Source: Geothrix sp. SG200 (lineage in GTDB: Bacteria > Acidobacteriota > Holophagae > Holophagales > Holophagaceae). From it: 64,000 bases of DNA. This document shows, in pieces, positions 3,208-38,441 of this stretch (positions within the stretch are counted from its first letter, which is position 1; the number at the start of each line of letters is the position of its first letter). Location of the stretch: positions 1-64,000 of the forward strand of contig NZ_JAKZFR010000001.1 in the NCBI RefSeq assembly GCF_022808935.1, given 5' to 3'. A program made the translations under genes and the position numbers. Under the pieces are notes generated by a model that ran no database searches, was not told the origin of the DNA, and was given only the letters and a program-made list of their open reading frames with translations.

Positions 3208-4841
3208 TGGGACTCCTGCTCGAAGTGGTAGGGGCCGTGAGTGATGGTGGGGATGGTCTCGAAGTTCTCCTGGGGGGGCGGGCTGGGGATGGTCCACTCC
3301 AGCGTCACGCCGCCCCAGGGGTTGTCCTCGGCCTTCGACCCCTTGAAGAGGGCGTAGATGAGCGTTCCGAAGAAGGCGAGGAGGCCCAGCACCAGGAACC
3401 AGCTGCCGACGGTCGCCACCACGTGCATGGTGTGGAACTGGGGCAGGTGGACGTAGTAGCGGCGGGGCATGCCCATCATGCCGAGGATCAGCATGCCGAA
3501 GTAGAGCATGTTGAAGCCGATGAACATGGGGAACCAGGAGGCGTAGATGGCCTTCTTGGAATACATCTTCCCGGACATCTTGGGGAACCAGTAGAGCAGG
3601 GCCGCGAAGAAGGCGAAGCCGGTGCCGCCGAACATCACGTAGTGGAAGTGGCCCACGATGAAGTAGGTGTCGTGGATATGCACATTGATGGCCAGGGCCC
3701 CCTGCATGACGCCCGTGAGGCCGCCGATGGCGAAGAGGAAGATGAAGGTCAGGGCGAAGAGCAGGGGCGGCTGGAAGTCGATGCTGCCCTTGTAGAGGGT
3801 GCTCACCCAGTTGAAGACCTTGATGGCGCTGGGCACGGCCACGACCATCGTCAGCAGGGAGAAGAGCAGCGTGGCCAGGCTGCTCATGCCCGACGTGAAC
3901 ATGTGGTGGGCCCACACCAGGCTGCCCACGCCGGCGATGGCCATGCTGGAGAAGGCGATGGCCTTGTAGCCGAAGATGGTGCGCTTGGCGAAGGTGGGGA
4001 TGATCTCGGTGATGGCGCCCATGGCCGGCAGGATCATGATGTAGACCGCCGGGTGGGAGTAGATCCAGAACAGGTGCTGGTAGAGCAGGGGATCGCCGCC
4101 CTTCGCGGGATCGAAGATGCCGATGCCGAAGAACCGTTCCAGGATGACCAGCACCAGGGTGATGGCCAGGATGGGCGTGGCCAGGAGCTGGATCCAGGAT
4201 GTGGAGTACAGGGCCCAGCACATGAGCGGCATGCGGAACCACTTCATGCCCGGCGCCCGCAGGCGGTGGATGGTGGTGATGAAGTTGATGCCCGTCAGCA
4301 TGGACGAGAAGCCCAGGATGAAGGCGCCGAACACCGCCAGGCTCACGTTGGTGCCGGTCTTCAGGCTGAAGGGTGCGTAGAAGGTCCACCCGGTGTCGGG
4401 CGCGCCGCCTCCAGTGAAGAGCGAGAGCACCGCGAGGATGGCCCCTGCCATGAAGAAGTACCAGGAGGCCAGGTTCAGCCGCGGGAAGGCCACGTCCTTG
4501 GCGCCGATCAGGATCGGCAGGAAGAAGTTTCCGAAGACGGCGGGCAGGCCCGGGATGACGAACAGGAAGATCATGATCACGCCATGGACCGTGAACAGGG
4601 CGTTGTAGGTCCGGGCGGTGATCAGGTGCTGGAAGGGCGTCAGCTGCACCAGGCGCATGAGGAAGCCGATGCCCACGCCGACGAAGAAGAAGCTGATCAT
4701 CGAGTAGAGGTAGAGCACCCCGACCCGCTTGTGGTCCGTGGAGGTCAGCCAGGCCAGGAGGCCCTTGCGGGAGCCCGTGTCCACGAGGTAGCTCGGCTGG
4801 GCCGTGGGATAGCCAGGCTGGGCGGTTGCGTGGGTGGTCAT
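3204..4841 (-). CDS. coxA: Cytochrome c oxidase subunit I (heme-copper oxidase, A2 subtype)
   Basis: The catalytic subunit reduces oxygen to water and pumps protons. The 545 residues span about twelve helices. Ligands visible are His86 (heme a), His263 and the cross-linked Tyr267 (CuB), His312/His313 (CuB), His398 (heme a3) and His400 (heme a). The helix VI motif reads YSHPAVY instead of GHPEVY: the proton-channel glutamate is absent and a Tyr-Ser pair precedes the CuB histidine. This YSHP signature defines the A2 class of heme-copper oxidases, which is known in caa3 enzymes of Thermus and Rhodothermus. The gene overlaps sco upstream and coxC downstream by 4 bp each. Confidence 0.98.
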   Translation of the reverse strand: MTTHATAQPGYPTAQPSYLVDTGSRKGLLAWLTSTDHKRVGVLYLYSMISFFFVGVGIGFLMRLVQLTPFQHLITARTYNALFTVHGVIMIFLFVIPGLPAVFGNFFLPILIGAKDVAFPRLNLASWYFFMAGAILAVLSLFTGGGAPDTGWTFYAPFSLKTGTNVSLAVFGAFILGFSSMLTGINFITTIHRLRAPGMKWFRMPLMCWALYSTSWIQLLATPILAITLVLVILERFFGIGIFDPAKGGDPLLYQHLFWIYSHPAVYIMILPAMGAITEIIPTFAKRTIFGYKAIAFSSMAIAGVGSLVWAHHMFTSGMSSLATLLFSLLTMVVAVPSAIKVFNWVSTLYKGSIDFQPPLLFALTFIFLFAIGGLTGVMQGALAINVHIHDTYFIVGHFHYVMFGGTGFAFFAALLYWFPKMSGKMYSKKAIYASWFPMFIGFNMLYFGMLILGMMGMPRRYYVHLPQFHTMHVVATVGSWFLVLGLLAFFGTLIYALFKGSKAEDNPWGGVTLEWTIPSPPPQENFETIPTITHGPYHFEQESQ

Positions 4842-17888: not shown

Positions 17889-18815
17889 ATGGACGACGAC
17901 GCGAAGGACCCGGCCCCCGGGGGATCAGGCACGGGCCGGGGGCTGGGCTTCCTGCTGGTGGCCGTCTCGGGGGTCTGCTTCGGCCTCCTGCCCATCTTCA
18001 ACCGCCAGGCGGCGGCCCTGGGCCTGGGGCTTCCCACCTTCCTGGCGGTGCGCTTCCTCGTGGCCGGAGGCGCCCTCTGGCTGTGGCTGCTCCTGCGGGG
18101 GATCCGCTTCGCCCTCACGCCGGCCCAGATCGCCGGCTTCGTGGGCATGGGCGCCCTCTATGTGGTGGAGAGCGGCCTCTATTTCGCCAGCTCCCGCCGG
18201 ATCCCCGTGGCCCTGACCGCCCTGCTCCTCTACCTCTACCCCGCCATGGTGGCCCTGTGGGAGGTTCTGGCCGGGCGGCACCACCTGGCGGGCCGAGACC
18301 TGATCGCCCTCCTCGCGTCGCTGCTGGGAACGGCCCTGGCGGTGGGCGCGCCGGGCCGGGGCACGGATGTCCTGGGCCTCGTCATGGGGCTCGCCACGGC
18401 CTTTGGCTACACCGCCTACATTCTGCTGGGCGCGCGCCTCCAGAAGGGGGTGCCCTCGCTGGTCGCCAGCGCCTGGATCATGTCCAGCGCGGGACTCATG
18501 TACCTGATTCTGGCCCTGGGTTCGCACCAGTGGGAGCCGGCGCTGGCCCTCCGCGCCCGGAAGCCCCTGCTGGGGCTGGCCGTGGTCGGCACCCTGCTGC
18601 CCATCCCCCTCCTGCTGGCGGGCATGGCCCGGGTGGGTGCCGCCCGGGCCTCGGTCGTCAGCACCCTGGAGCCGCTGGCCGCCTGCCTGTTCGGGGCCCT
18701 CTTCCTCCGCGAGATCCTGCTGCCCTGGCAGGGGGTGGGCGCGGCCCTGATCCTCGGGGCGGTGATCCTCCTCTCCGTGGAGCGCCGGCCGGACGAACCC
18801 CTGGCGGAGCGGTGA
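17889..18815 (+). CDS. EamA/DMT-superfamily transporter
   Basis: A 308-residue membrane protein with ten predicted helices arranged as two EamA repeats, the fold of drug/metabolite exporters. The first repeat begins LVAVSGVCFGLLPIFNR and ends in ALLLYLYPAMVAL; the second ends ASVVSTLEPLAACLFGALFL with the typical EP pair. The substrate is unknown. ATG at 17889 is chosen because the hydrophobic part follows soon after and a TACCCT box stands 6 nt before it; starts at 17850 (TTG) and 17862 are possible. Confidence 0.88.
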   Translation: MDDDAKDPAPGGSGTGRGLGFLLVAVSGVCFGLLPIFNRQAAALGLGLPTFLAVRFLVAGGALWLWLLLRGIRFALTPAQIAGFVGMGALYVVESGLYFASSRRIPVALTALLLYLYPAMVALWEVLAGRHHLAGRDLIALLASLLGTALAVGAPGRGTDVLGLVMGLATAFGYTAYILLGARLQKGVPSLVASAWIMSSAGLMYLILALGSHQWEPALALRARKPLLGLAVVGTLLPIPLLLAGMARVGAARASVVSTLEPLAACLFGALFLREILLPWQGVGAALILGAVILLSVERRPDEPLAER

Positions 18816-35001: not shown

Positions 35002-35583
35002 TCAGCTCCCGGCTTCCGGCGCGGGCTGGAGGGAAGCCAGCACCATCTCCAGCAGGCCGTCGATCATGGCGCGGAGTTCGTCGGCGTCCTTGGCGGATTC
35101 CTTGAAGCCGTGGACGGCGCGGGTGAGGACGCGGGCGATCTGGCCGGGGGGAAGGGCCTTCGCAGGGGCGCTCGCGCTCAAGGGGGCGAGGATGCCCACC
35201 AGCTCGGCCTCGAAGGCCGCCACGGCCTCGTCGATGGCCCCCTTGGCGAAGGCGAGGCCCCCGTGAAGGGGTTCCCGCAGCTCGGGCGAGGCTTCGAAGA
35301 ACCCGAAAGGGCGCACGGCCCATAGGTCGAAGGCGAAGCGCAGCTTCTCCAGGGGGGTGGGGCGGGCCTCCAGGCCCTGGCGGACCTCCTCCAGCGTGCG
35401 GGCGGTGAAGGCCCGGAGGACGGCCTCGAAGGCCTCCTCCTTGTTGCAGAAGACCAGGTAGAGGGCCGGTCGGGACATGCCCGCGGCGGCGGCGAGGTCA
35501 CCCATGGTGGTCCGCCGGTAGCCGAAGCGGAGGAACACGGATTCGGCGGCCTCCAGGACCCGGGCCTTCTTCTCGTTTCCCAT
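35002..35583 (-). CDS. TetR-family transcriptional regulator
   Basis: A 193-residue protein with an N-terminal TetR helix-turn-helix (LEAAESVFLRFGYRRTTMGDLAAAAGMSRPALYLVF, residues about 10-45, cited here by its ends LEAAESVF and ALYLVF). The C-terminal ligand domain is not specific. It is divergent from a short-chain dehydrogenase gene, and the shared region is full of TGACA half-sites, so it probably represses itself and that gene. A TTGACA/AATACT promoter ends 6 nt before its ATG. Confidence 0.93.
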   Translation of the reverse strand: MGNEKKARVLEAAESVFLRFGYRRTTMGDLAAAAGMSRPALYLVFCNKEEAFEAVLRAFTARTLEEVRQGLEARPTPLEKLRFAFDLWAVRPFGFFEASPELREPLHGGLAFAKGAIDEAVAAFEAELVGILAPLSASAPAKALPPGQIARVLTRAVHGFKESAKDADELRAMIDGLLEMVLASLQPAPEAGS

Positions 35584-35589
35584 GAAAAG

Positions 35590-35656
35590 AGTATTGACAA
35601 AATTTGTCCAAATGTCAACACTGGCTATCTGACATTATTCGTCATAGTGTCAATTC
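35590..35656. promoter_or_regulatory. Divergent promoter and operator region of tetR and the SDR gene
   Basis: On the minus strand TTGACA (35613-35618), 17 bases, AATACT (35590-35595), six bases and the tetR ATG give a near-ideal leaderless promoter. On the plus strand TTGACA (35594-35599) with AACACT 17 bases later serves the SDR gene. Six TGACA/TGTCA half-sites occur, including TTGACA-N13-TGTCAA and TGAC-N7-GTCA, and the near-palindrome GACAAAATTTGTC. The region is A+T-rich unlike its surroundings. Confidence 0.7.
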
Positions 35657-35672
35657 GTCCATGGAGCGCAAC

Positions 35673-36590
35673 ATGACCCTGGAATCTTGGACCTGGGCCC
35701 AGGTGCCCGATCAGCGCGGCCGGGTGGCCGTGGTCACCGGGGCCACCTCCGGCACCGGCTTCGAGGCGGCCCGCATGCTGGCGGCCTGCGGGGCCACCGT
35801 GGTCCTGGCCTGCCGTAACCTGCCCAAGGCCAAGGCTGTGGCGCAGCGCATCCAGGCGCTGCATCCCGGGGCACGGGTGGAAGTCCAGGCCCTGAACCTG
35901 GCGTCCCTGACCTCCGTGCGGAGCACCGCCGCGGACCTCCTGGCCCGCTTCGACCGCCTGGACCTGCTGCTCAACAACGCCGGTGTGATGGTTCCGCCCT
36001 ACGGCAGGACCGAGGACGGGTTCGAGCTGCAGCTCGGCACGAACCACTTCGGTCCCTTCGCGCTGACCGGCCTCCTGCTGACGCGCCTGATGGCCACGCC
36101 GGGTTCCCGGGTGGTGACCATGAGCAGCAATGCCCACCGGATGGGCCGCATCTACGCAGACGATCTGGACTTCGAGCGCGGCTACCGGGCCTGGGCCGCC
36201 TATGGCCAGTCCAAGCTGGCCAACCTCCTCTTCGCCTTCGAGCTGCAGCGCCGCCTGGAGGCGGCCGGAGCGACGACGCGTTCCCTGGCCGCGCACCCCG
36301 GCTGGGCAAGGACGGAGCTGCAGCGCCACGCGGGCTGGATCCGCTGGCTGCGAACCGTGGGCCTGGAGGCCCTCCTGAGCCAGGATGCCTTTGGTGGTGC
36401 CCAGCCGCTGCTGCGGGCCGCCACGGATCCCGAGGCAGAAGGCGGGGCGTACTACGGTCCCTCAGGTTTCCAGGAGATGAAGGGAGCCCCCGTGCCGGTG
36501 CGGTCAGACGCCCGCTCGCGGGACGAGGGTCTTCAGCGCTGGATGTGGCGCCTCTCCGAGCGCCGCACGGGGGTGGTCTATCCGATCTGA
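35673..36590 (+). CDS. Short-chain dehydrogenase/reductase, retinol-dehydrogenase-like
   Basis: A 305-residue NAD(P)-dependent oxidoreductase. Cofactor motif TGATSGTGFEAARML (about 22-36), NNAGVM (about 98), catalytic Ser in VVTMSSNAHRMG and YGQSK (about 179-183). The sequence style is that of the retinol dehydrogenase/WW-domain oxidoreductase group; the substrate is unknown. ATG at 35673 has GGAG 6 nt upstream; an earlier ATG at 35661 is also in frame. Probably controlled by the divergent TetR protein. Confidence 0.92.
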   Translation: MTLESWTWAQVPDQRGRVAVVTGATSGTGFEAARMLAACGATVVLACRNLPKAKAVAQRIQALHPGARVEVQALNLASLTSVRSTAADLLARFDRLDLLLNNAGVMVPPYGRTEDGFELQLGTNHFGPFALTGLLLTRLMATPGSRVVTMSSNAHRMGRIYADDLDFERGYRAWAAYGQSKLANLLFAFELQRRLEAAGATTRSLAAHPGWARTELQRHAGWIRWLRTVGLEALLSQDAFGGAQPLLRAATDPEAEGGAYYGPSGFQEMKGAPVPVRSDARSRDEGLQRWMWRLSERRTGVVYPI

Positions 36591-36699
36591 CCGTTTCAGC
36601 CGCCGCCTCCGGAAGGCCGGAGCCCTGCTCGTCGCCGCGACGGTGGCGGGGGGCTTCTGGGCCGCCGGCTCCTCTCCCGATGTCTTCAGGAGTCCCCGC

Positions 36700-37755
36700 A
36701 TGAACCAATCCCCGCAGTGGCGCGATGGGCGCTTCCGGAACCCCCAGCCCCTCTGGAACGACACCTGGGGGGCCCTCTCCGCCATGGTTCGGCGGGACCC
36801 GAACGCCAACCCACAAGCCCCGCTCCCCGTGGTCCATCCCACCGGGGCCGACCTGGTCGCAGAGGCGCCCTCGGGCCTGCGGGCCACCTGGCTGGGCCAC
36901 TCCACCGTGTACCTGGAGGTGGACGGCACCCGCATTCTCACGGACCCCGTGTGGGGACTCCGGGCCTCGCCCTTCGGCTGGGCCGGGCCACGGCGCTTCT
37001 ACGCGCCCCTCATCCCCCTGGAGGAGGTGCCGGTCCCGCAGGTGGTGGCCATTTCCCACGACCACTACGACCACCTGGACGAGGGCACCCTGCGCCGCCT
37101 GAAGGACTGGGACACGCACTTCGTGACGCCCCTGGGCGTGGGGGCGCGCCTGGTGCGCTGGGGCGTGCCCGCGGCCCGCATCACAGAGCTGGACTGGTGG
37201 GAATCGGTGCAGGTGGGCGGCCTGGAGGTGGTCCTCACCCCGGCCCGGCACGCCTCGGGCCGGGGCCTGCGGGACAAGGACCGGACGCTCTGGGGCGGCT
37301 TCGCCTTCCGGGGTCCCCGGCACCGGGTCTACTTCTCCGGCGACACGGGCCTGTTCCAGGGCCTGGCCGACATCGGCGAGCGCCTGGGGCCCTTCGACCT
37401 GGCGATGATCGAGGCCGGCGCCTACAACCCCGCCTGGCCCGACTGGCACCTGGGTCCCGAGCAGGCCGTGCAGACCTTCGGGATGGTGCGGGGACGGGTG
37501 CTCCTGCCCATCCACTGGGGCCTCTTCAACCTGGCGGCCCACGGCTGGACGGAGCCCGTGGAGCGGGTGCTGGCGGCAGCCGGCCCCCAGGGGATCGCCG
37601 TGGCCCTGCCGCGGCCCGGCGAAGGCTTCGAGCCCGGCGGATCCTTGCCGACCCAGCGCTGGTGGCCCGTGCTGCCCTGGAAGACGGCGGCAGAGGTGCC
37701 CGTCCGTGCCAGGCTGAATGGACAACCCATGCTTCCAGAAGGAGGCCTCCCATGA
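36700..37755 (+). CDS. MBL-fold metallohydrolase, NAPE-PLD/UlaG-like
   Basis: A 351-residue protein with a beta-lactamase fold: LGHSTVYLEVDGTRILTDP (about 67-85), metal motif SHDHYDHLD (about 114-122), TPARHASGRG, FSGDTG (about 213) and the C-terminal IHWGLF. It resembles phospholipase D-like MBL proteins. AGGAG lies 7 nt before ATG 36700. Upstream in the same frame a reading of about 35 codons (RRLRKAGALLVAATVAGG) looks like a membrane anchor, but has no start codon except GTG at 36643. It overlaps the next gene by 4 bp. Confidence 0.88.
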   Translation: MNQSPQWRDGRFRNPQPLWNDTWGALSAMVRRDPNANPQAPLPVVHPTGADLVAEAPSGLRATWLGHSTVYLEVDGTRILTDPVWGLRASPFGWAGPRRFYAPLIPLEEVPVPQVVAISHDHYDHLDEGTLRRLKDWDTHFVTPLGVGARLVRWGVPAARITELDWWESVQVGGLEVVLTPARHASGRGLRDKDRTLWGGFAFRGPRHRVYFSGDTGLFQGLADIGERLGPFDLAMIEAGAYNPAWPDWHLGPEQAVQTFGMVRGRVLLPIHWGLFNLAAHGWTEPVERVLAAAGPQGIAVALPRPGEGFEPGGSLPTQRWWPVLPWKTAAEVPVRARLNGQPMLPEGGLP

Positions 37756-38441
37756 AGGTCCTGATCTTCGGCGCCACGGGCATGGTGGGGCAGGGCGTCC
37801 TGCGCGAGTGCCTGCGGGACCCCGGGGTCACGGAGGTGGTGGCCCTCGTGCGGCGGGCTTCCCTTCCCGCGCACCCCAAGCTGCGCGAAGTCGTCCACGG
37901 GGACTTCTTCGACTACCGGGCGGTGGAAGCCGACCTCGCGGGGCTGGACGCCTGCTTCTTCTGCCTGGGCGTGTCGTCGGCGGGCCTGCCGGAGGCCGAG
38001 TACCGGCGCCTGACCTTCGACCTGACCCTGGCGGCGGCGGGGACGCTGACCCGCCTCAACCCGGCCCTGACCTTCGTCTACGTGTCCGGTGCCGGGACCG
38101 ACAGCACCGAGCGGGGCCGCACCATGTGGGCGCGGGTGAAGGGGGAGACCGAGAACGCCCTGCGGCATCTGCCCTTCAAGGCGGTGTATCTCTTCCGCCC
38201 CGGCCTCATCCAGCCCCTCCATGGCATCCGCTCGCGCACGGGCTGGTACCAGGCCGCCTACACCCTGATGAATCCCGCCCTCCCTCTGCTGCGGCGGCTC
38301 TTTCCCAATTCCATCCTCACCACGGAGGCGCTGGGTCGGGCCATGCTCCGCGCGGCACGGGACGGAGCGCCGAAGGCCGTGCTGGAGGCCGCGGACCTCA
38401 TCGCCCTGGGGGCGCCTCCAGGGCCAGCAGGCGCGCCTTGA
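37752..38441 (+). CDS. NAD(P)-binding atypical SDR (epimerase-like)
   Basis: A 229-residue protein with an N-terminal Rossmann motif VLIFGATGMVGQGVLREC (about 3-20) and LVRR near 34. The later VYVSGAGTDSTERGR and WARVKGETENAL fit the HTATIP2/YbjT-like atypical SDR group, where TyrxxxLys is replaced. The substrate is unknown. GGAGG is 6 nt upstream of the ATG, which overlaps the stop of the hydrolase gene (ATGA). The end converges with the methyltransferase gene by 44 bp. Confidence 0.87.
   Translation: MKVLIFGATGMVGQGVLRECLRDPGVTEVVALVRRASLPAHPKLREVVHGDFFDYRAVEADLAGLDACFFCLGVSSAGLPEAEYRRLTFDLTLAAAGTLTRLNPALTFVYVSGAGTDSTERGRTMWARVKGETENALRHLPFKAVYLFRPGLIQPLHGIRSRTGWYQAAYTLMNPALPLLRRLFPNSILTTEALGRAMLRAARDGAPKAVLEAADLIALGAPPGPAGAP

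Follow-up and report, generated by a model that had tools for sequence, protein, structure and literature searches.

Our best explanation of the region upstream of tetR in Geothrix sp. SG200, which we hold with considerable confidence, is that a sigma-70-type promoter gives rise to a leaderless tetR message and that the same 25 bp probably serve as the operator for TetR, lying over both this promoter and a divergent one. The gene lies in a stretch of 64,000 nucleotides, referred to here as the window. Judged from its sequence, tetR is very likely transcribed without a leader, because its promoter ranks first among 442 genes, a genome-wide class of genes has the same 6-base distance, and the arrangement is conserved across 13 of 13 Geothrix genomes.

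Read directly on the minus strand, TTGACA (35618-35613), a 17-base spacer (35612-35596), AATACT (35595-35590), CTTTTC (35589-35584) and the ATG (35583-35581) follow each other, exactly as the original prediction of TTGACA-17-AATACT-6-ATG had it. As in sigma-70-type promoters, TTGACA stands 16-18 bases from a TATAAT-like, imperfect hexamer with A at position 2 and T at position 6. A promoter scan gave 10 of 12 matches, compared to 0.0 expected from shuffles of the region, and also returned a second, weak promoter-like match upstream, TGGACG-16-AATAAT. The earlier description of the promoter as strong holds for the perfect -35 element but not for the -10 element, since AATACT agrees with TATAAT at only four of six positions (two to four in the hexamers of relatives). 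Because the tetR hexamer begins with A, a pattern with TANNNT fixed had no match in the window. The -10 element ends about 6 bases before the start codon, as in leaderless genes, and a Shine-Dalgarno site is missing, in agreement with the claim that tetR has no ribosome-binding site: the 16 bases preceding the ATG contain no Shine-Dalgarno-like triplet, and GGA, GAG and AGG are likewise absent from the last 16 bases in all 13 orthologues. This had been called the clearest sign of leaderless expression in the window, which is accurate for a single promoter; however, three more window genes, at 17889 (+), 47043 (-) and 49685 (-), have TANNNT 6 bases before the ATG, with weak -35 elements.

The leaderless geometry depends on the start codon. 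Membership of the TetR family is indicated by the N-terminal TetR_N helix-turn-helix (HTH; PF00440, 48.4 bits with a cut-off of 24), which begins at residue 10. No in-frame ATG, GTG or TTG occurs in the 51 open bases upstream of the ATG, and a codon-usage gene caller that uses no upstream signal independently chose 35583. A later start had been raised as an alternative. It is unlikely, because the domain begins so early, no start lies upstream, the gene caller agrees, and the next in-frame candidates (a GTG in codon 17 and an ATG near 35505) fall inside the HTH. The features of the locus are collected in Table 1.

Table 1. Observed and proposed features of the tetR locus (window positions)
Feature	Position	Strand	Basis
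tetR-family regulator, 193 aa (TetR_N)	35002-35583	-	Pfam PF00440, 8.2e-13; orthologues in 12 further Geothrix genomes
Predicted transcription start, A of the tetR start codon	35583	-	6 bases past the -10 hexamer; genome-wide TANNNT peak at the same distance
-10 element AATACT of tetR	35590-35595	-	Sequence, promoter scan; relatives AACACT, AATCCT, or CAACAT at spacer 16 (two)
-35 element of tetR (TTGACA), doubling as the left arm of operator A	35613-35618	-	Sequence, promoter scan; 13/13 orthologues
Putative operator A, dyad TTGACA-N13-TGTCAA	35594-35618	.	Single occurrence in genome; both arms 13/13
Inner palindrome GACAAATTTTGTC, probable TetR core site	35596-35608	.	Sequence; GAC 13/13, GTC 13/13
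Putative operator B, weaker second copy TTGACA-N13-TGTCAG	35629-35653	.	35 bp upstream of A
Proposed -35 TTGACA of divergent SDR operon	35594-35599	+	Plus-strand dyad match; conservation
Proposed -10 AACACT of divergent operon	35617-35622	+	AATATT or AATACT in most relatives; start predicted near 35629
Shine-Dalgarno GGAG of SDR gene	35663-35666	+	Sequence; kept in most relatives
SDR oxidoreductase (PRK06197-like), Shine-Dalgarno-led, divergent	35673-36590	+	NF004846, 6.5e-123; 10/13 orthologous loci
Metallo-beta-lactamase-fold hydrolase	36643-37755	+	PF12706, 4.1e-49; 36643 may lie upstream of the true start
NAD(P)H-binding protein	37752-38441	+	PF13460, 3.3e-08

For a genome-wide view, genes were called across 864 kb of the contig that holds the window (the window plus 800 kb of stretches, L042-L081), and promoters were scored for the 442 genes that had 45 or more free bases upstream. 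Among these, tetR came first when -35 and -10 scores were combined at a distance of 6 bases (10 of 12). The distance from the end of TANNNT to the start codon was 6 bases in 20 genes, 5 in three and 7 in five, while distances of 8-14 bases accounted for three genes altogether. Of the 28 genes in which TANNNT stood 5-7 bases from the start codon, 11% were preceded by Shine-Dalgarno-like tetramers, vs 51% of the remaining genes. A 400-kb sample of a second Geothrix species went in the same direction, with TANNNT at 6 bases in three genes and in none at 0-5, 7 or 8, but the peak was small and the numbers were low. Together with the conservation in 13 species, this class of genes with the same geometry makes the proposed start on the A of the ATG the best reading of the sequence. 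Given the genome-wide 6-base peak, leaderless genes should be taken into account when start codons are annotated in Geothrix.

The pattern TTGACA-N16..18-NANNNT-N4..9-ATG matched ten times in the 3.36 Mb genome; its reversed control did not match at all. Seven of the ten matches precede an open frame of at least 96 aa, and five of those seven encode regulators: the tetR under study, a second TetR, a MarR, an HTH_34 protein and a response regulator, the last recognised by reading its sequence and not by family search. Because the set is small and was picked by the pattern, we take this excess of regulators as a lead and not as a test. The second TetR gene (L037/L087, G000:C6:157945-157981) has TTGACA-N16-TACACT-N6-ATG with the dyad AAGTAAGTACTTACTT inside the spacer region. 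The HTH_34 winged-helix regulator (L034, G000:C1:833060-833096) has TTGACA and, 6 bases before the ATG, NANNNT; its spacer contains the imperfect dyad GTTTGCGCTACAAAC. A third TetR gene (L093, G000:C7 near 14468) combines TATTTT at 6 bases from the ATG with the palindrome ACCGATCGTTCGGT. We also observed a divergent gene pair, 51 bases apart, with TANNNT 6 bases before both ATGs (G000:C1:648582-648634; L071 ~4582-4634); both genes are possibly leaderless from overlapping promoters.

Orthologues of tetR were compared in 13 Geothrix genomes, SG200 included, with identities of 56-100%; G. fermentans DSM 14018 carries one of them. Near-identical loci in Geothrix paludis, G. terrae, G. oryzisoli, G. 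campi, G. fuzhouensis and G. fermentans place the genome in the genus. Outside the genus, the relatives searched gave generic TetR similarity only. The TTGACA of the tetR promoter was kept in all 13 orthologues, and the hexamer at spacer 17 ended 6 bases before the ATG in 12 of them and 5 bases before it in one (L013). In 11 of the 13 species this hexamer is AATACT, AACACT or AATCCT, always with A2 and T6; in the remaining two, CAACAT at spacer 16 supplies A2 and T6.

These results supported the leaderless reading but also showed it to be incomplete. The perfect TTGACA doubles as one half-site of a previously missed dyad operator, which stretches across the promoter and probably acts on the divergent gene as well. 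Its sequence makes dyad A the likely TetR operator. A comparison of the two copies bears on what the conservation means. The full arms TTGACA and TGTCAA occur in 13/13 and 13/13 orthologues in copy A vs 8/13 and 3/13 in copy B, while neither copy varies at GAC (position 3) or GTC (position 21) in any orthologue; in operator B, GAC is kept in 13/13, a second GAC in 11/13 and GTC in 13/13. The simplest reading would be that GAC...GTC reflects what the repressor needs and that the complete arms of copy A additionally reflect what polymerase needs. Conservation of TTGACA may be owed in part to its operator role, because GAC is kept at the same place in operator B, where no tetR -35 element is needed. 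A perfect -35 element beside a repressor gene, then, can owe part of its perfection to an operator.

Because the arms of dyad A are symmetric, the plus strand also bears TTGACA-N17-NANNNT, and it does so in 12 of the 13 species, with a spacer of 16 in the other. These plus-strand elements are likely the promoter of the divergent SDR operon. With TTGACA-N17-NANNNT on both strands, the tetR promoter and the likely SDR-operon promoter would therefore overlap in one operator. Operator B was considered as the SDR promoter and rejected; its position-17 hexamer is without T6 in SG200 and in the relatives read. For the SDR gene itself, the ORF list points to starts at 35604 (TTG, longest ORF 35604-36590) or 35661, but these were rejected in favor of 35673, because relatives keep GGAG-N6-ATG but not the ATG at 35661. 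The locus shows an internal contrast, in which the SDR gene has GGAG at a normal distance whereas the divergent tetR has no Shine-Dalgarno site. Three species are missing the SDR gene, and there the hydrolase gene is directly divergent from tetR; the hydrolase is therefore the more constant partner of tetR. Downstream, the ATGA overlap at 37752-37755 (+) between the hydrolase and NAD(P)H-binding genes suggests translational coupling.

Other origins of the tetR message can be weighed against this evidence. Transcription might start a few nucleotides before the ATG, with the same translational consequences, and the 5-base gap at spacer 17 in L013 and the genomic occurrence of TANNNT at 5 and 7 bases are in keeping with such a near-leaderless transcript. 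We nevertheless consider it unlikely, given the sharp genome-wide peak at 6 bases and the distance of exactly 6 in 12 of 13 orthologues. It is more doubtful still that the message comes from the weak TGGACG-16-AATAAT over operator B, with a leader of ~44 nt lacking a Shine-Dalgarno site, leaving 35618-35590 mainly as an operator. The scan did return this match, its AATAAT is kept in most close relatives, and both copies of the operator retain the GAC arms. However, TGGACG is not kept in relatives, AATAAT is lost in four of them (L009, L010, L012 and L013), and the downstream promoter scores higher, with a complete TTGACA in 13/13 orthologues vs 8/13 in copy B. Moreover, such a leadered message would still have no Shine-Dalgarno site, although about half of the genome's genes have one.

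Finally, since the dyad arms themselves read TTGACA, TTGACA...AATACT could be a chance resemblance arising from a palindromic operator, with tetR expressed by read-through only. This is very improbable. The upstream neighbour is divergent, so no gene is available for read-through, and the A2 and T6 of the -10 element and its distance to the ATG lie at or beyond the edge of the dyad, where 11 of 13 species keep A2 and T6 at spacer 17 and the remaining two have them at spacer 16.

Under the leaderless reading with a shared operator, transcription would begin on the A of the tetR AUG, and the message would therefore have neither leader nor Shine-Dalgarno site. A TetR dimer on operator A would cover the tetR -35 element and spacer together with the overlapping promoter of the SDR/hydrolase operon; spanning both, it would shut off its own gene and the divergent target until a ligand binds, whereupon both promoters would open. 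Because the two promoters would overlap almost completely, only one polymerase at a time could occupy the site. The leaderless start probably keeps translation of the repressor low, as measured for acuR in Rhodobacter. More tentatively, and short of an even chance in our estimation, a near-symmetric 25-bp operator gives the -35 elements to two fully overlapping divergent promoters, of which the repressor side alone is leaderless. The repressor level would then be kept low by three effects together, namely competition between polymerases, self-repression and the weak translation of a leaderless message, and elements of the same design may recur at several autoregulators of the genus.

We found no mapped 5' ends or RNA data for Geothrix in the literature searched. 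In Acidobacteria, all three genomes examined by Zheng et al. (2011, PMC3160421) have 9.7-19.4% predicted leaderless genes, and tetR gives Acidobacteriota a clear, conserved example of predicted leaderless expression that is easy to test. The TA-led leaderless class of bacteria has a Pribnow-like TANNNT ~12 bp upstream of the start codon, counted from the first T (PMC3160421), which equals the 6 bases between hexamer and start in Geothrix tetR. Unlike that class, the tetR hexamer begins with A, and a perfect -35 element and a conserved operator are present besides. In bidirectional promoters, of which PacrA/acrR of E. coli is an example, the two directions share a -10 element, with starts 7-25 bp apart (PMC12825309, PMC10268837). 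The Geothrix locus would resemble PacrA/acrR in its divergent overlapping promoters, in pairing a TetR-family repressor with a target, and in possibly admitting one polymerase at a time. However, we rejected a promoter with a shared -10 element: the predicted Geothrix starts, 35583 and ~35629, are 46 bp apart, vs 7-25 bp by definition, and the symmetry lies in the -35/operator arms.

The sequence evidence makes Geothrix tetR most likely a well-conserved, newly found example of a known arrangement, the leaderless, self-repressing TetR-family gene. Classical leaderless repressor messages are those of tetR of Tn1721 and lambda cI (cited in PMC3017554), which likewise combine a self-regulating repressor with a leaderless message, in different hosts. 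In TetR-family acuR of Rhodobacter, the 5' end was mapped to the A of the AUG, an operator lies over the promoter and translation is weak (PMC3017554). Like acuR, Geothrix tetR would be leaderless, has no Shine-Dalgarno site and has an inverted-repeat candidate operator over its promoter; the reduced translation was measured for acuR. The two differ in that acuR lies in one operon with its targets and has a mapped 5' end, whereas the likely target of Geothrix tetR is divergent, its 5' end is predicted and its dyad has a different sequence.
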